A stretch of 64,000 nucleotides of DNA from Cliona cf. orientalis (Eukaryota; Porifera; Demospongiae; Clionaida; Clionaidae), in contig OZ005694.1 of assembly GCA_963930775.1 (NCBI GenBank), positions 620,001 through 684,000 on the forward strand, given 5' to 3'. The notes beneath the pieces were generated by a model. The model did no database searches. It worked only from the letters and a program-made list of their open reading frames with translations, and had not been told where the DNA came from. A program made the position numbers and the translations under genes. Below, piece by piece: positions 17,132 to 26,957 of the stretch. The first letter of the stretch is position 1. Each line of letters opens with the position of its first letter.

Positions 17132-18193
17132 CAAGAGGGAATTAAGTATATTTCCTGCCTCGTCTAAAATTTGCTCAGTGCTTGAGATGCTATGGGATCT
17201 TTTCTCTAGTATGGCTTCATCATGGGTACAAACTTTTTGCTTTCCCATCGCCCATGAAAGGCTAACTAGAGTATCCCCTCCTTTACGGAAGATAAGTGTA
17301 CCAATTGACCTTCTTGTGAACACATTTGAAACTCATATATCTATGTAGATATACAACTAGTTGGTTTAATAGCCACTGTGCTGTGAACTTGATTGTGCCC
17401 TCCCCAACTTCCAGGAGAAGGTCCTCTGAAAGTGATGCTTCTGAACACTGATATACCTCCCGGAATATGGTTGATACATGAGGAAGAAGCAAAGCGTGCT
17501 GGGGAAGGAGTTCCTTTGCCACATAAACAACAGTGCTTAGAGTTGCTCTGGTAAGTTGAGACATATTACTTGCTTGCATTAGTTCATGCTCCCATGTGGA
17601 GATGTCTTTTTCCAACAATTCATTCGGTGTTAGTACCTCTCCCAAGGACGTGAGGGTTGCTACATGACTCTTGTAGCAGTCTAAGCAGATTTTGTCATTG
17701 GCCGCTAACTTGTGACTACTGCCTGTACTTTCTAATAGCACCAAATTAATTGTTTGTGGGTCTGGACAGTGTCTAGTGAAATGTTCTCCCCTTTTTGGCT
17801 TCATCCCACAGCTTGCACAACACTGTGGGGGTGCTAGCTTTCTTTGTGCCTCAGCATAGTGTTTTGGGCACAATACGAGGTGGTCTACGCTTGAACTGAT
17901 GTTTAGTGCTGGCTTCAGCATAGCGGGGGGTTGAAAAGAAGGTTCTATCAATCTAGCCTGACTAGCAGTTACAGAGCAATGTGGGTAACTGCATACTAGT
18001 GCTGTTTTTGCTGGCTGTGCTGTTTTTTTTCACTTGGGTATGTAATCATCATGTACGGAGTGCCGTTTAGCTTCCATATGATGAGCCTTGCATATACAGC
18101 TGCTAGGGGCGAGCTCCTTTCCTAAATGCTTTTCAACAAACTGTTTCTCGGTAGCACCCCAACCTCCAAAATGAGCAACTGCTGTTATTGTAT
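17132..18193 (-). pseudogene. Cys/His-rich ORF of unknown family, 3' part
   Basis: The minus strand encodes a protein with many zinc-ligand-like clusters: CICKAHHMEAKRH, CSYPHC, LCPKHY, CASCGMKPKRGEHFTRHC and CLDCYKSH. The frame is open apart from one TGA near 18030 (after DDYIPK) and a frameshift near 17345, after which it continues (SLSWAMGKQKVCTHDEAI) into the gap. Its 5' end joins 25548-25645 once the inserted transposon is removed. I do not recognise the family. Multiple CxxC and CxxH clusters suggest a DNA-binding or transposon protein. The two lesions suggest it is no longer intact. Confidence 0.6.
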
Positions 18194-18522
18194 GTGACCC
18201 GCTCCAGGAAAAGGGACCGTTCGCGAGAATAAATCAAATTGCAGTACGAGCCCGAGAAGGGCCGAATCAAGTATTTTTATAATTTTTTTTTTTTACACCA
18301 TATGAATCTATATTCTTTTCTCTTCATTTTGATATGCTTTGCTTGTATTCTAAGCAATTATAAGTATGTAAAAAAATAAAAATAAGATGAACAGTTCACT
18401 TACTTGCATAAATATACGGGCAACTGTATTATAAGATCGGCGAGTGATAAGCCGATTCCCGCCAAAGTAGTTATCGATCTTGATGCGGCTGCATACTATT
18501 ACTATTAGCAGTACTGCATGCA

Positions 18523-21254
18523 ATGGAGGACAGAATCGCCAGGGCACTCAACCGCTTAGGTGAAGACGCGGACCTTCTCTCCGCAGACACGGACGGCCTA
18601 CTCGACTTGCTGGACGATTACCTCGACGATGACGACCCTCCAGGTAAAACCCCACCCAAGTACCCACTTAAAAATACATTATTACACCACTACCACCACA
18701 AAGAATAATACATGCTACTACTATACAACATCATACACTAATATCAGGATTTAACAATAATTATAACAACAATACATTAGTGGCTAGCGATGAGGGCATG
18801 GATGGTGTGGAGGAGGACCCCCTCGAGGAGATAGATGAGCTGGAGGAGAGTAGTCCTCCATCAGCCGAAGAGATCGTCTCCGCGAGTCTTGAGAGTGGTT
18901 CCCTCACCGACATTTGCGATGTGTCAGTAACCATGAGATCCATCGATACTGACGAGGAGGAGCTGGTGAAGATGTTCGCAGATCATGGCTGCACGTGCGC
19001 GTTTGGTCCCCACAAGTCCCCTTGCTGCAAGCAGTTCTCGGAAGACCATTACCTCGCTGTCCGTGGAGCTCTCAGCGAGATGACTAAAGATGAGCTTGAC
19101 TTGATGGTGATGGGGCAGATCATGGCTCACTGTTCCCCATCCCCCTCAGCCCCCAGTCCCAGCACTAGTCCTGCAGAAAAGATAGAGGTGCACACACCCA
19201 TGAAGTTCTTTCATGCAGGTCTCCGTGTGTGTCAGCAAACGTTTCTCTTTCTGCACACCATTGGAATCAAGCGATTCAAGCACATAAAGGCGAGCTACTT
19301 GTGCAACGGACCAGCAGCGAGAGTGCATGGCAACAAGGGGAGGAAACCTAAGAAGACACTCTCACTGCAAGAGGTCAAGGATGTAGTTCAGTACATCTTA
19401 AACTACACAGGTATCAAACTCTATAGCATTCATTAGGCAAGAGTTTACCTTGCTCTCATACAGACGCAAACGCAATGGTACTTCCCGGACGAGTTCCCGG
19501 GTATAAGAGTGCTGACGTCCAGCTTCTCCCCAGCAGCACAACCAAGCACAAGGTGTGGGAGCTCTACCAGGAGTCTGCGACGGAGAATTCCATGAGACCT
19601 GTGGGCTATTCCACCTTCACAGGGTTGTGGAGGCAACTCCTGCCATACATCGTTGTCATGAAGCCGATGACCGACCTCTGCTGGCTCTGTCAACAAAATG
19701 GTTCTGCTCTTGCGAAGTGCTCTAACCGCTCTATAGAAGAGAAAGCAATGGTATGCATACTGAATACTTGTATGAATGCTTGTATGTGTGGCGGGTATGA
19801 GTGTGTACGTATGGATGTGTGCATGTACATGTAGATGCATTGTAGCAAACTATTCTGTACATGTACATGTCGTATGTATGCAAATGCTCTTTCCACATGC
19901 TTTTATGCATGCAAAAGGGATGTGTGACAGAAAGAGAGAAATATAATTTACATGAGATTGTTACGTCATTTCAGGCCCTTCGTCAAGCCGAGCAACACCT
20001 AGAAGAGGTCACTAAAGAGCGCTCCTTGTATAAGACGGCCATTGACACTGCCAAACAGTCCATCCGGCACTTCTTCTCTTCTGACGGTGTCTTCAGTCCT
20101 CCCCAACCTGCGTGCAAGTCACAACCGAGCTCAAGGCTCATCACAGCTCACTACTCTTTTGACATGGCCCAGCAGGTATTCTACCCGAATGACCCCCAAC
20201 AGCCAGGGCCCATGTACTTCCTTACACCAAGAAAGTGTGCCATCTTTGGAGTATGCTGTGAGGCTATCCCGCGTCAAGTTAATTACCTTATTGACGAGTC
20301 AGTTGATACTGGCAAGGGAGCAAACGCCATCATCAGCATGCTCCATCACTTCTTCGAAGTACATGGGCTTGGAGAGCAGGACGTCCACCTCCACGCTGAC
20401 AACTGTGGGGGTCAAAATAAGAACAACGCCATGGTAGGATACCTGCTGTGGCGCGTGCTCACCGGACTCCACCAAAACATCACCCTCTCCTTCATGATCA
20501 CCGGTCATACCAAGTTCTCCCCTGATTGGTGCTTTGGCCTAATGAAGAAGAGGTAATACAATCACATACTGTACTACTACAAATAAGTGATAGACATGTA
20601 CACACATGTACAATGTATACCACATGCAGATATCGACGTACGAAGATTGGGGGGCTAGCTGATCTTGCCAATGTGGTCAACAGTTCGGCAACAGTCAACG
20701 TTGCTCAGGCTGTTGGCACCATGGATGGGACAGTTATCGTCCCAACGTACGATTGGACCTCCTTCCTTGCTGAGCACATTGGCAAGTGTGTGGGGATCAA
20801 GTCACTACACCACCTGAGATTTCCAGGGAATAACAAGGGTCACGTCTTCGTTAGACACAAGTCCGATTCCCTGGAAGTTGACATGAAGCTCCTAAAGGAT
20901 GCCTGGAGTCCAGACCCCACAGATTTGCCAGAGCGAGTCATGCCGTCAGGACTTTCTCTCACCAGACAGTGGTATCTTTTTAATAAGATACGAGAGTATT
21001 GTCCTGACGAGTGCAAAGACACCACCTGTCCTGAGCCAACTGAGCCAGACGTCACTCCTGCCGCAGCCACCGTCCTTCCAAGTCCTGCCGCTACTCCAGA
21101 TCCTACCGCAGCCACTTCCACGACCACTGTAGTAGTTCCTGCCACTGCCTCTACCACTGGAGAGCTCAGTGAAACAAGAGCTAAGCGGCCGCGGCTCTGT
21201 GGAATCTGCAGGGAGGAAGGACACAATGCACGGAAGTGTCCTAAGAAAGTGTAG
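18523..21254 (+). CDS. DDE-type transposase, DUF7869-like, 5 exons
   Basis: Exons 18523-18643, 18781-19410, 19464-19750, 19975-20552 and 20630-21254 join in consistent phase to give 746 aa with no internal stop. The N-terminus (1-105) is acidic. A Cys cluster (C111, C113, C122, C123) follows, then a conserved block FFHAGLRVCQQTFLFLHTIG and a basic stretch leading to LPGR (257-260). The likely RNase H-fold core has D409 (HYSFDMAQQ), D488 (LHADNCGGQNKNN) and D530 (GHTKFSPDWCFG) as candidate catalytic acids. The C-terminus has a CCHC knuckle (C729, C732, H737, C742). The HADNC..QNKNN and GHTKF.PD pattern recalls the family I know as DUF7869, which is repetitive in invertebrates. The name is from memory and unverified. 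The position between two TIRs supports a transposase role. Confidence 0.85.
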
Positions 21255-23064
21255 TCTCTCTCCCTCACCTGCACATACTTTCCGCTATTTTGACTCTTTA
21301 ACTGTACAACGCCCCCCCCCCCCCCCCCCCCCCCATTTTTGTTACTGTATCTCTCTCACTCTGTACGTTTCTCTGCCCCCCCCCCCTCCTCCCCCACCTC
21401 TCAACTGGACAGAGTCATAATCTCTGCCATCCAGGGGAAAAAAAAAAAACTTGAATTGCCTTCAGTAGGCAACACCAGTTCATGAATAACAGCTACTGGG
21501 TTCATACTGTAGTAGACTAAAGAGAGTACTTACCTTCTCCTTTTGCCTACGTGGCACAGAGAGCAGTCAATCCGCCAACGTACGCATTGCCGTATACTTG
21601 TATTAAAATTTATTTGCACTCTCTAATTATCCGAATTGACGTATATTTCAGCGCGAAATCAATGGCGGTTATCTGCAGAAAGTAACGGCTGCCAAATGGC
21701 AGTTTTCGAGTGATAAAATATTCTTAACGGTCGAATTCACCAACTTCGACGCAAGATTAAGCTATCTCGCTGATATTCAATCCCTTGCCTTCCGTTATTC
21801 GGACTCACGAGCTCACCAAAAAGAATAGCTCCACCCATCATCAGAGAGGTGTATCAACGAATCGGTGTCCGAAATGCAATTCTTATCTCACAATCGTGAC
21901 TATACTTTGTTTTCATATTATTAATATGTTAAATAAGTATACAAAAGTAATAGCAAGTGTGTGGTTGATTCCTAATCTGGAGTACAGAGCATCAAAATTG
22001 CCTAATTTATGCCTTCAGGGAAGGAGCTGAACTTGGCTTGAATTCTTGTACTGAATGCTGTGATGTGTGCAAGAGGGGAAGAAGGAGAGACAGAGGGTGG
22101 GGAGAGAGAGAATGAAGGGGAAAGAGAGATAAATAAATGTTTACATGTACTCAATTTGTCAAATAATAGACACAAATGTGACCAAGAGCCCATGCTCACT
22201 ATGTAATCGGATGCCCACCCACTATTGCAGGAGTCTAGATCCCAGCCCTCATGCAATCCTAGCAACTGATGGGATCACATCAAGCTGGAATAGCCTATGG
22301 GTTGAAGCCCTGTGCTAATGGACATTCTTGTACATGAAACTGTTTAGATTTTCTTTGTGGAATTGTATATAATATTTCCATAGACCAATATTTTAATTCA
22401 AACCCCTCAACAGCGGACACCCCGCTATTCCGTATAACGGACACTTATTTTGGTCCCATTCGAGCCTGTGCAATAGTGAATAACCTCGCATAACGAACAG
22501 TTAGGCTACACCCACCATTTAAATTGGTCAGTTTCAGCAACCAAATGGGCAGAGAAAATGTGACGTTGTATAGTCATGCAGCTAGCTAGTCAAGAAGATG
22601 TGAAAACAAAACCATTAAAAGTTCCACTAAAGCGTTAGCAAGCAATTCCGCAAAATTTGCACCACACGGAAAGAAGTCCCTCACATAGCTATCTACAATT
22701 GCAATGGCTAAAAGCAATGTGGGTTGTACATACGCAGGCTGAAAATAAACGATCATTCAACATATTAAGAGTATGGATAATGATTACAGACCTCCAATTC
22801 AGCGAAATATCTTCCAGTGGGATATCAATATTCAGTCTAGTATCGATAATATATCATGAATCAAGCAGCCACATCATCATGCCTACTATTAATTTTGTGT
22901 ATGCATCAACTACTCTATGTGCATCCATCATTGTTTCTTTGCTAGTTTGTTCACTATGAGACTCTCTTTCAGTTCAGAACTATTGCTGCTAGGGCAGAAC
23001 TGCTTGCTATGCATGTACACTATGGTATGCATGACTTTCAGCCAATCAGGTGGAATATGTAATA
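21255..23064. other. Non-coding transposon interior with poly-C tracts
   Basis: C runs at about 21311-21334 and 21377-21386. A sequence at 22404-22525 resembles, in inverted orientation, the TIR element near 29640-29890. A minus-strand splice-donor-like site occurs near 21530, but no exon chain could be built. Confidence 0.45.
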
Positions 23065-23473
23065 CCGTATAGTGGGTAAATTTGGTGAGCATTAAATTTG
23101 GTGAATCACTCCCTTAAAGATATTGACGAATTTTAAATTTTGGCGACTTGATAAATTGTGAGTGCAAGCGCATGACGCGATAAACAAGTGACGTAATGCA
23201 TGGATCAGTTGGCCAGCCGGCCACTCCATTCGAAAGAACTTGAGCAGCGACATTGATTCCTGACAAACGAGTCTATTTTACACCACGGTTGCGAGCAATC
23301 AATCTAATTTTGCTTAACTCGTACTGCTCTCGTTCACATGTGCATGCGCACACGTAGTCATTACGTCATAAAAATACGTTATTTAAATATTGGCGAGTTT
23401 TAATTTGGCGATTTTCTTTAAAATTCACCAAATCGCCAAATTAAAAACCTCGCCAAAGTTTCCCACTATACAG
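23065..23473. mobile_element. TA-flanked MITE (CCGTATAGTGGG ends)
   Basis: CCGTATAGTGGG at the left and CCCACTATACAG at the right are flanked by TA. Sub-terminal repeats of the type TTTGGCGA / TCGCCAAA are present in inverted orientation. It is nested in the 7.35-kb transposon. Confidence 0.7.
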
Positions 23474-23477
23474 TAGG

Positions 23478-23600
23478 TAATAGTTATATCACGGGCGCGA
23501 GGGATGTATGGCATTTATTGCACCGAAGCCCGAGGGCCTTGTGCCCGAGGGTTGAGGGCAATAAATGCCATGCATCCCGAGTGCGCGTGATATAACTATT
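23478..23600. mobile_element. Palindromic element with CCCGAGGG core
   Basis: TAATAGTTATATCAC pairs with GTGATATAACTATT. The inner arms GCATTTATTG / CAATAAATGC surround CCCGAGGGC units. It shows the same architecture as 278-403. Confidence 0.65.
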
Positions 23601-24203
23601 TTATATCCCGTGGGCATAGCTACCATGGATACGCATAGAACACTAGAAAATAAAGAAAAACAGGATCGTCTCTTACTCGAAACAGACACACAAAGCCGCT
23701 CTCCGAGTGGGGTTCAGCTCGAACGCCAGTCGATCGAACTTCTGATGGTCTCGTGACCGAGGGGTGTGGTCAAATCGACACGACCATCGCGTAAGTGTGA
23801 CCAAGCATCATCGACTTTAGAAGCCAAGAAACAAAGCTCGAGCTGTTGCTTATCCTAGAAACAAGTCTACGCATTTCCATGCTATTTAAAGTGGCTACGC
23901 AGTAAGCGTACCTTTCAATTGATCGACAACTCCTCGAGCTGGACTCCGCCCTTCGCACCAAACCACTCAATTCTTCGATATCCTGCCGCCATACGCTCCT
24001 TTGAAACAGTTTACAGAGCATTGAGTCGCTGATCCTGGGACCGTTTTGCCTAGAGTACTTCATATTGCACTGTGGTTGCCCAAAGCTACTCATATTGCAC
24101 TGTGGTTGCCCAAAGCTACTCATATTGCACTGTGGTTGCCTGTAGCTATTCTATATGGATTTTAATGCACATAGCAACAATGTAGTAACGGGATATAATA
24201 GTT
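23598..24203. mobile_element. TIR element with ACTATTTTATATCCCGT ends and 30-bp tandem repeat
   Basis: The left end ACTATTTTATATCCCGT matches the reverse complement of ACGGGATATAATAGT at the right. Near the right end, a 30-bp unit (CATATTGCACTGTGGTTGCC...) is repeated three times at 24060-24148. The minus-strand ORF 23770-24123 reads through it with a repeated SSFGQPQCNM decapeptide and no recognised domain. Whether that ORF is expressed is unknown. Confidence 0.5.
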
Positions 24204-24312
24204 AGTTATAGCACGGCTGCCAGGGATTTATGGCAACGTATTAAAACCACCCACGTCCTCAGGCTACGTCCTCGGACTTGGGTTTGTTAAATCCCTGGCC
24301 CCATACTATTAC
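24199..24312. repeat. Degenerate palindromic element
   Basis: The arms GCCAGGGATTTA and TAAATCCCTGG lie between TAATAGTTAG and CTATTA ends, resembling the hairpin elements at 278 and 23478. Confidence 0.45.
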
Positions 24313-24553
24313 ACATTCTGCTAGGTTATATATATGCATGAGCAGAAACATAATAATATGGCCACTCATGGCTACAGGTGCCAATAAAAGGCACTATAAT
24401 TTGTGATGTTCGTCGATCATATGCGTGCAAAAGAAATTTATGCACATCTAACGGTGTTGGTACAAACAAAAGGGACTCACCTGTGATCAGGGATGCCAGA
24501 GCATCAATTGTAAACATGTCCTCCCGTCCACCTCACCCGACCAAACACCTCAT

Positions 24554-24904
24554 ATGGAAATACAGCAGTCCCTATATTTTACAAGTGAAATAGAGCAGTC
24601 ATTTCTTATTGGAGAAGAGGTAGAAGCTGGAAACTATTCTGACAGCAGTGATAGTACCTCAGACACTGACCCTGATACTGCCAGTAGTACTGACAGTGAC
24701 ACAGCAGAAGTCATGTATGCCATTAATACTAGCCGAATACATAAGTACATACAAATTGCTGTCCGAAATACAATTCTTATGGTTTACAAAACTTGGCAAT
24801 CATTCTATTACTGCTACAATTATTATATTTTCACCTGGCATAGTGATCTTCTGTGTGCTATCTTTGTAAGCGCTGATAGACGAACATCTTTGTACACGGT
24901 CTGA
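24554..24904 (+). CDS. Hypothetical Ser/Asp-rich ORF
   Basis: A 116-codon ORF whose first 50 residues are acidic (repeated SDS, TDTD, DTAS), then a hydrophobic, Tyr-rich C-terminus that looks non-coding. A true exon might end near residue 52. It lies inside the 7.35-kb transposon and could be a first exon of a cargo gene, but no downstream exon was found. Confidence 0.2.
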   Translation: MEIQQSLYFTSEIEQSFLIGEEVEAGNYSDSSDSTSDTDPDTASSTDSDTAEVMYAINTSRIHKYIQIAVRNTILMVYKTWQSFYYCYNYYIFTWHSDLLCAIFVSADRRTSLYTV

Positions 24905-25516
24905 ACCGATAGGTAAGTCACTGGTCAGCGTTCCTCGGTGTGCTTGACTTGAAACCAAATTTTAGCTCTCCAAAATATTTTCTTCAGCTATACTGATCCC
25001 TCAGCTCATCTTCTAGGGTCATTTTCGGTGCAAAGACAGCCTTTTTATGCTTCCAAAGTGAGTCACAACAACTGTCCTCTTCCACGCACATGGCGTAGTT
25101 TTGTGTGGTCACGTGACATGGGCGTTGCAATGAAATATTTACGGTCAGCGCTATTGGCGGATTGACTGAGAGAGCGTCTTCCTCGCCTCCTAGGATCCTT
25201 TTCGACCTCCTTTGTTCTTTCTACGAGGCGCGCGCGACCCCTCTCTGGCTTGGCCCGGCAAATCAATTATTTACCTGACGTCATCGAACATCACGTACGT
25301 GCACGGATACCCGCGTAACGTACACGGAATAAACAGGAAATAAACTAAACGCCCGTTTCTAGAAAATTTTTATCCTTGGCAACGGGCGACCCGGTCAATT
25401 TGAAACGGCCATAACACGGCCTCTGAATAATTTTAGAACTCCAAACTTGCACCATTGTACTCTACGCTTGTAGCGCTAACGATCCATACCAAAAACGCGA
25501 TATTGGCAAAAAAATT
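24905..25516. other. Right sub-terminal region of the 7.35-kb transposon
   Basis: Contains a short basic minus-strand ORF (25266-25063, Arg-rich) of doubtful reality. No other feature was supported. Confidence 0.35.
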
Positions 25517-25547
25517 GCGAACGGTCCCTTTTCCTGGAGCGGGTCAC

Positions 25548-25645
25548 GTATGGTCACACAAGACACAATTGGTACAATTCTGTTTTGGATGGTATTTGGA
25601 GTGATGGTGGTGTGCTTCTAACTTGGACACTACATGTACATTCTG
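25548..25645 (-). pseudogene. Cys/His-rich ORF of unknown family, 5' part
   Basis: The minus-strand frame reads a His-rich stretch and QNCTNCVLCDH, then meets the transposon end. It continues in the same frame at 18193 (HTITAVAHFGGWG), using the shared GTAT once. The upstream boundary may be a splice acceptor near 25640. Confidence 0.6.
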
Positions 25646-26957
25646 TTTCCTCCTGTTGCTCATTTTCCTAGTAAATTAAAACAACCAGTCAGTTATGGTT
25701 TTCCATATGCACGCATGAACAGTGCAGTGTATCTAGTCATTTTACAGGACAATTATTTTATTTACTTGAGGAATCTTATGCTTTACATTATGCAGGAGAG
25801 AAGATGTCAAGTCTATAATATTTATATTATTATTGTTTTTTTTTTAATGATTATCTTTGCAGTATTAATCTTATTGTTATGAGTACTATAGCATTGGATA
25901 ATAATTCTATTACAATTCACTTACTTTTGAGCATGTCACTTTGTTCAGGGTTAGGACCAGAGGGCAGAATGGAATGATAATATAACCTGGAATTTTTTTC
26001 CCCTAGTGGAGTGGGACACAAAATTTGTTACTTCAGTCTATTGGTTTAACCTATTATCTACCTATCTATAGTGGTTTTGAGTGGTACTTACTTGAGTTAC
26101 GCTAATGTTCCAAGCTTCATCAAAGAGACCGCAAATAGTCAACAGCAGCTGTCGTTTTGTCTAGTATGGTTTCTATGGACTACACTTCCGTGTTTGTCCG
26201 TGCACTAGGTTTGTGCATGCTATGTGCATCCGCATTCCTGGTCTGGGCATGCATAATTGAAGCGCGCGTGCGTACTACTTCAAAACAGCCACCCGCCTCT
26301 TTTAGCTAAATCGGTAAATTTGTCTCAATACGATTCACGTGAAAAATTATATCTCGAGATAGGAACGTTTATCGAGTCACGTGCGGTTCGACTGCACTCG
26401 CAAAATGCGCTGTACACACCCACAATTAAATCGCTGTCCTGATAACACAAAACGAGCGTGTCATGGACCTGCGTGCTACAAAATGGAGTGGATTTATACT
26501 CAAACTAAGATGAGCGATCAAGGCAGTGTTGAGTTAGCCCTGATAATGAAAAAGAAAGAAAGATTGAGAAAATGGCTTTTTTTTGAACATCTGGTTCTGG
26601 CATATACAATGGAGTTGATGAATGATCTTGGTCTTGTTAGATCGATAATTTGCTGTAGATTCTGATTTTGACACTTCGAAATCTCACAAAATTACCTGTT
26701 TTGAGATATTTTGATATTTATAATGTATTACATATATGGAGTATCCGTGCCATCCCTACTTATAGAGTCTACCGACTCTATGATAATAATAATACTTAGT
26801 TATGTCCCAAGTAAGCGCCCATGCAGGCCAAATTTAGAATAATAATAATTATTATTATTGTTATCTCCAATGATGCATAATATATAATAAAGGGGCATAG
26901 TTCTGTACGATTATTTATGTATTTGTACAGATACGATACAAAATAAACACATGCATA
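25646..26957. other. Intergenic, nothing recognised
   Basis: AT-rich. The short plus-strand ORFs (25634, 26257, 26381) have no domain features and were not called. Confidence 0.4.

Follow-up and report, generated by a model that had tools for sequence, protein, structure and literature searches.

A DNA transposon with a DUF7869 protein as its probable DDD transposase in Cliona cf. orientalis, and related insertion sequences in bacteria

Introduction

Among described mobile elements, the closest in character to the one considered here are the Sola transposons, Sola2 above all. Excerpts of PMC10741241 characterise Sola by a DDD transposase, a 4-bp target-site duplication (TSD), a length of mostly 2-9 kb, and an occurrence in both bacteria and metazoans. 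AWWT target sites are given for three Sola2 families of Dictyostelium fasciculatum in part of PMC3627910, and a passage of PMC5718144 describes the DDE/D enzymes as having an RNase H-like order of strands and helices, with the first two acidic residues on or next to beta-1 and beta-4. The element in question lies in a stretch of 64,000 nucleotides from Cliona cf. orientalis (assembly GCA_963930775.1, contig OZ005694.1, positions 620,001 to 684,000 of the forward strand), here called the window, in which all positions without a contig name are counted. It is best explained as an autonomous DNA transposon of approximately 3.75 kb, encoding a DDD transposase of the Pfam family DUF7869 and split close to the right end by an insertion of 3.6 kb that is unrelated to it; we put the probability of this explanation at about 0.9. 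An earlier note on this DNA had instead proposed an autonomous element of 7.35 kb with a 4-bp TSD, possibly representing an undescribed superfamily. As to Sola itself, a 2009 paper by Bao et al. is said to have distinguished Sola1-3 by their termini and targets, and reportedly presented the Sola enzymes as unlike any other known.

Results

The element is a real, well-bounded and discrete DNA transposon. Its two ends are perfect copies of a 31-bp terminal inverted repeat (TIR), with GTAT outside each (Table 1), and both features were found again as the earlier note had described them. That note had fixed the boundaries by observing that removal of the element and one GTAT rejoins a minus-strand open reading frame (ORF), and this also held: a frame of 95 codons is open across the junction, the halves of this host frame lying on the minus strand at 17286-18193 and 25552-25675. 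Furthermore, contig C14 holds a paralogous site without the element (C14:5746608-5746892), which aligns to the joined flanks with 284/301 identities and no gap. The paralogue of the 95-codon host frame at this site is uninterrupted, 94% identical, and contained within a frame of 927 amino acids (aa). Hence the boundaries are settled by more than the reading frame alone, as a natural empty site exists. The interrupted host frame matched 11 pieces at several places in the genome, two of which are the window's own halves, and a Pfam scan of it returned no match above the cut-off.

The window's own assembly, comprising 216.8 Mb in 149 contigs, contains 52 places matching the TIR pattern with at most 3 mismatches, against 0 for a backward control, and chance matching was rejected on this comparison. 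The 39 loci fetched around TIR matches and weaker matches, taken together with the window, included 26 two-ended copies or relatives, allowing up to 7 mismatches at each end. Seventeen of these measure 3474-3755 bp, the other nine being the window, four loci of 1638-4582 bp (L040, L044, L053 and L054), two relatives of 3448 and 3463 bp (L070 and L071), and two loci of 410-415 bp (L067 and L068). Identical 4-bp flanks were present in 21/26. No copy had matching flanks at 3 bp, nor at any length from 5 to 9 bp (0/26 in each case), and the matches at 2 bp (11/26) arise because sites such as ATAT give them of themselves. When left and right flanks of different copies were mispaired as a control, they agreed over 4 bp in 111/650 pairs, since the target site is biased. 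The 21 TSDs comprised ATAT (10), AATT (3), GTAT (2), ATTT (2), and one each of GAAT, ATTA, AACT and AAAT; AWWT accounts for 16/21 sites, with position 1 being A in 18 and G in 3, and position 4 being T in 20.

The two shortest loci, L067 and L068 on contig C2, have the related end GTGACCTGCTCCAGGAAAAGGGACCGTTCAG, with AAAT on both sides of L067 and no duplication at L068. They are likely to be non-autonomous relatives, and short elements with related ends are the usual sign of a transposase acting in trans. Of the DNA matches to the element's left end, 31/40 fall on contig C1 (37.5 Mb), all of them in its upper half at 18.7-36.1 Mb, where matches to DUF7869 are also crowded, as judged by eye.

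Part of the interval between the TIRs does not belong to the element. The stretch from 21564 to 25168 has its own 15-bp TIR, the right end being the reverse complement of the left, and sits inside an (AG)n run. Twenty fetched loci align to both sides of 21564-25164, of which 19 reach the junction, and L052 reaches only 21328. None of the fetched element copies matches inside the nested stretch (BLAST, E 1e-20), making it absent from 20/20 comparable copies. Its left end was found at 7 other places in the genome. The longest stop-to-stop frame within it is 150 aa, such that it holds no long frame. Therefore the 7.35-kb length is composite, 3605 bp of it being a separate nested insertion, and the element proper is approximately 3.75 kb. 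The earlier proposal of an autonomous unit of 7.35 kb was rejected accordingly, while its description of a discrete and apparently autonomous transposon with a 4-bp TSD stood. Relative to other copies, the insertion into the (AG)n target has a net gain of 4 bp. Inside the insertion are an inverted repeat with 27-nt arms, resembling a miniature inverted-repeat transposable element (MITE), and a palindrome with 52-nt arms (23063-23475 and 23479-23600).

The element encodes a single protein of 746 aa in a five-exon gene model. The model, together with D409, D488, D530 and the C-terminal CCHC motif, was recovered as first reported, and all four introns have GT-AG boundaries in 22/22 other copies (L039-L062 without L040 and L042). 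The gene is intact, with no frameshift and only the terminal stop, in 9 of these 22. Comparison of the window with the nine intact copies gave ratios of nonsynonymous to synonymous substitution rates (dN/dS) of 0.10-0.17, at a dS of 0.08-0.12, and introns were more divergent than exons in 9/9 comparisons. The low dN/dS, and the greater divergence of introns, indicate that the gene was under purifying selection during the spread of this lineage.

The protein is a clear member of DUF7869 (PF25273; E 2.1e-17, 63.8 bits against a cut-off of 26), a Pfam family that itself carries no function, and for the whole protein this was the sole Pfam family at E≤1. The first of the three Asp residues is extrapolated to precede the start of the Pfam model, which as drawn would therefore cut the core. 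PHROGs and NCBIfam scans of two of the window's exons gave nothing below E 0.1, and sequence and profile searches of the PDB gave no match. The term DUF7869 was not found in a full-text literature search, and searches with fragments of the protein's motifs, including GQNKN, listed no match that by its title concerned this protein.

Relatives of this protein were sought by scanning bacterial and archaeal genomes, one for each species, with the core alignment as query. Eight bacterial loci were identified, in Candidatus Thiomargarita nelsonii, in Desulfobacterales HSG2 and Bpl_7, in two metagenome-assembled genomes (MAGs) of Deltaproteobacteria, and in one MAG each of Nitrospirales, Legionellales and Verrucomicrobia. 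Six of the eight frames are uninterrupted, at 635-667 aa from stop to stop; a seventh, of 577 aa, is truncated where its contig ends, and the remaining one is a fragment. The Legionellales homologue aligns with the window protein at full length (36% identity over 607 aa, E 9e-127), and core identity between the bacterial and window proteins is 48-55%. Five bacterial elements are two-ended, with inverted repeats of 39-61 bp that are 87-98% complementary and, the first G being taken by eye as the terminus, start with GGGG (GGCG at one end of L104). In the bacterial element L101, joining the flanks restored no frame that continues beyond the insertion, and hence this locus gives no empty-site support.

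Of 10 neighbouring bacterial frames scanned, 7 matched Pfam families (GAF, EAD11-TIR, DnaJ, GIY-YIG, ISL3 and DDE_3 transposases, and AlbA_2) and 3 matched none. The bacterial family is rare beyond the genomes in which it was first found: a search of 394 others in one phylum gave 1 weak match, and 41 others in one order gave 1 broken copy. A tblastn search with the L101 protein found no match in plasmids or phages, and three scans of viral contigs found no relative, such that these searches revealed no reservoir of the family. In the Verrucomicrobia MAG (L105, 192-1982), the DUF7869 fragment follows, across one stop codon, an ORF without a Pfam match at E 0.001.

The three Asp residues correspond to residues 63, 142 and 184 of the exon 4 translation, giving the spacing D-78-D-41-D, and are invariant in all 8 rows of the window-plus-bacteria alignment; the degenerate copy L041 has Asn in place of the first. 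AlphaFold2 was supplied with exon 4 and seven bacterial homologues. The exon 4 model has strands at 54-69, 87-95 and 98-107, a helix at 116-130, a strand at 134-141, a helix at 147-162 and a strand at 168-173, in the order beta-1, beta-2, beta-3, alpha-1, beta-4, alpha-2, beta-5, with D63 within beta-1 and D142 just past beta-4. The model of a full-length bacterial protein has the same order, with a helix at 500-508 that starts at D501. The predicted core thus follows an RNase H-like order and places its first two acidic residues as DDE/D enzymes do. A position of the third near a helix after beta-5 is likely in these models, yet not firm. Of the three Asp residues of the earlier note, D409 and D488 are in place in the models, and D530 is conserved within a stretch of low confidence; by inference, all three would be catalytic. 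Among the best 50 Foldseek matches listed from the PDB for exon 4 were the C-terminal half of UvrC, PIWI, RuvC and terminase nucleases, and the matches listed for the full-length protein began with TnsB, followed by PIWI and MutS-beta. Many of the matches listed, these included, have RNase H-like folds, and some do not. The predicted RNase H-like core, the conserved Asp residues, and the same protein in bacterial elements are in keeping with the earlier identification of the DUF7869 protein as the element's transposase, which it very probably is.

More divergent relatives occur in the window genome itself, in which at least 165 pieces match DUF7869, against 0/14 control genomes, and at least 169 are similar to exon 4. 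A second lineage, exemplified by L078, has only 21-22% core identity to the window element, an intronless frame of 699 aa, and the ends GTGAAGGCATAGAG. TSDs flank four of its six two-ended full-length copies (ATAT at L078, and ATAT, ATAT and ATGT at three others). The one short relative, L095 (C16:7029712-7029941), is 230 bp long, is flanked by ATAT at each end (1/1), and has ends related to those of the second lineage; it is likely to be a MITE. Alignment of the second lineage with the bacterial profile by hhalign gave a probability of 99.2%, with all three Asp in register. Introns split other DUF7869 groups of the genome (L084-L086), in which a GHTHEDIDQ-like motif occupies the position of the third Asp.

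A tree of the core was built from 15 sequences. L077, which has a stop codon, was left out of the core alignment. Left out of the tree were L041 and L083, as near-copies of rows that were kept, the L105 fragment, and L084-L086, which are split by introns; the L105 fragment was likewise left out of the full-length alignment, and L084-L086 out of the alignment. The tree separates the lineage of L078 and L082, and 8 of its 12 inner branches are open.

Table 1. Features of the element and of the insertion nested within it, in window coordinates
Feature	Coordinates	Strand	Remarks
Left target-site duplication	18190..18193	.	GTAT
Left 31-bp terminal inverted repeat	18194..18224	+	GTGACCCGCTCCAGGAAAAGGGACCGTTCGC
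Transposase exon 1	18523..18643	+	ATG at 18523
Transposase exon 2	18781..19410	+	
Transposase exon 3	19464..19750	+	
Transposase exon 4	19975..20552	+	Predicted RNase H-like core, all three Asp codons
D409 codon	20161..20163	+	In predicted strand beta-1
D488 codon	20398..20400	+	Directly after predicted beta-4, HADNCGGQNKNN
D530 codon	20524..20526	+	GHTKFSPD; conserved, in a stretch with pLDDT under 50
Transposase exon 5 and stop	20630..21254	+	
C-terminal CCHC zinc-knuckle-like motif	21198..21239	+	CGICREEGHNARKC; Pfam zf-CCHC E 0.14, below cut-off
Nested insertion, separate from the element	21564..25168 (3605 bp)	.	15-bp TIR CAGTCAATCCGCCAA / TTGGCGGATTGACTG, (AG)n stretch
Right 31-bp terminal inverted repeat	25517..25547	-	
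Right target-site duplication	25548..25551	.	GTAT

Discussion

The element of this window is best understood as an autonomous transposon, the function of which can be pictured as a short series of steps. Firstly, one spliced gene would produce a DUF7869 transposase with Cys residues in its N-terminal half, a DDD core predicted to be RNase H-like, and a zinc-knuckle-like motif at its C-terminus. Secondly, the N-terminal half may bind the TIRs. Thirdly, both ends would be cut with the aid of metal ions held by D409, D488 and D530. Fourthly, strand transfer would join these ends to an AT-rich target at positions 4 bp apart on its two strands, and the filling of the gaps by host repair would generate the 4-bp TSD. 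Judging by the class of enzyme, such movement would be cut-and-paste rather than copy-out.

Several observations weigh against this reading. The genome search with the TIRs, suggested by the earlier note as a means of listing flanking 4-mers, confirmed the duplication in most two-ended copies, but an exact TSD is missing in 5/26 (L046, L056, L057, L062 and L068), as it is in 2/6 full-length copies of the second lineage (L079 and C14:7342228). The AT-rich 4-bp flanks of the bacterial elements are exact in 2/5 (AATT and AAAT), with 3/5 agreeing at 3 of 4 bases. Both AlphaFold2 models are of moderate confidence, with a mean predicted local distance difference test score (pLDDT) of 65.1 for exon 4 and 66.8 for the bacterial protein, and this falls below 50 at residues 175-192 of the former, including D184, and at residues 499-515 of the latter, around D501. 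No Foldseek match reaches E 0.001, and the template modelling scores (TM-scores) are low. Finally, the likeness to Sola discussed below is a likeness to published descriptions.

On the printed description, the element is most likely a member of the Sola superfamily: it appears to work like Sola, and probably is one. The predicted DDD triad, 4-bp TSD and size of approximately 3.75 kb all resemble what is described for that group, the bacterial relatives may correspond to its bacterial members, and AWWT in 16/21 of the family's target sites recalls the AWWT of the amoebozoan Sola2 families. As the gene is spliced, the window genome is eukaryotic. Since the TSD, the DDD triad and the AWWT target fit the printed Sola, as the range across bacteria and metazoans may also do, the element is more probably a Sola member not yet described than the undescribed superfamily raised as a possibility in the earlier note.

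Other named groups compare less well. Zator/ISAzo13 (PF07592) is also a pair of eukaryotic and bacterial elements, according to parts of PMC10045372 and PMC5718144, and a faint profile similarity to it was seen in 3 of the 18 rows scanned (the window row was in both sets scanned, its own table in one set being without PF07592). However, the best PF07592 score was 15.8 bits against a cut-off of 26.9, and the TSD given for these elements in an excerpt of PMC10045372 is 3 bp, whereas that of the window family is 4 bp, with 0/26 copies matching at 3 bp; Zator/ISAzo13 was rejected on its TSD. Kolobok and piggyBac share the 4-bp TSD, but their target is TTAA in the relevant part of PMC9587614, which was the sequence of 0/21 TSDs in the window family, and they were likewise rejected.

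The alternative with the most to recommend it, which we nevertheless regard as rather unlikely, is that the DUF7869 transposase founds a superfamily apart from Sola and all other named ones, its bacterial counterpart being an unnamed family of insertion sequences. No Pfam transposase comes near its cut-off, the best being DDE_Tnp_ISAZ013 at E 0.0075 and 0.018 and DDE_3 at E 0.13; NCBIfam returned no transposase match for 6/6 bacterial proteins; the PDB profile search was without a match; and DUF7869 was not found in the literature searched. Yet the silence of Pfam and NCBIfam says little, as neither need hold a Sola model under that name, and Sola as printed has the same TSD length and size, the same AT-rich target and DDD triad, and a presence in bacteria. 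It is correspondingly doubtful that DUF7869 constitutes an unnamed transposase superfamily, with spliced transposons on the eukaryotic side and intronless insertion sequences across several bacterial phyla. Were this the case, it would add a further eukaryote-prokaryote pair to the "at least six" counted in 2017, in the passage of PMC5718144 that enumerates them.

It is much less probable that the bacterial loci represent eukaryotic contamination of MAGs, such that there is no bacterial branch. Most of the contigs are short and derived from MAGs, and the family is rare in the searches of the one phylum and the one order described above. Against this, 6/8 of the frames extend over 635-667 aa without a stop or an intron, and 7/10 of the neighbouring frames match Pfam families, including the GAF and EAD11-TIR genes on a 48-kb contig of Desulfobacterales HSG2. 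Least probable is a captured DUF7869 host gene, carried as cargo by some other transposon to which the TIRs belong: the window element by itself would leave room for this, DUF7869 being of unknown function, but the gene aligns in 22/22 copies examined, the distant L078 lineage and the bacterial elements carry the same kind of protein between different ends, and the core is predicted to be RNase H-like with conserved Asp residues.

With the autonomous transposon as the preferred reading of the window, a family of cut-and-paste DDD transposases looks to span a eukaryote and several bacterial phyla. The bacterial homologue is closer to the window protein (36% identity over the whole protein, and 48-55% over the core) than is the second lineage of the same genome (21-22%). 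On the less likely reading of an unnamed superfamily, this would suggest transfer between domains of life, at a time following the split between the lineages inside the window genome. With 8 of its 12 inner branches open, the core tree favours neither bacteria nor eukaryotes as the donor.

Within the searches made, two points seem to be new: that DUF7869 can be assigned to a transposase core, one in which a DDD triad is conserved, and that it has relatives among bacterial insertion sequences. This provides a likely function for a family now annotated as unknown, as in the branches studied its members are very probably transposases of mobile elements, rather than host genes. The clean ends, targets and intact genes make the element suited to a laboratory transposition assay. 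Furthermore, the bacterial insertion sequences, for which neither Pfam nor NCBIfam gave a transposase match, are closer to the element than is the second lineage alongside it. Hence the movement of transposons between bacteria and eukaryotes becomes, in this family, a concrete and testable question.

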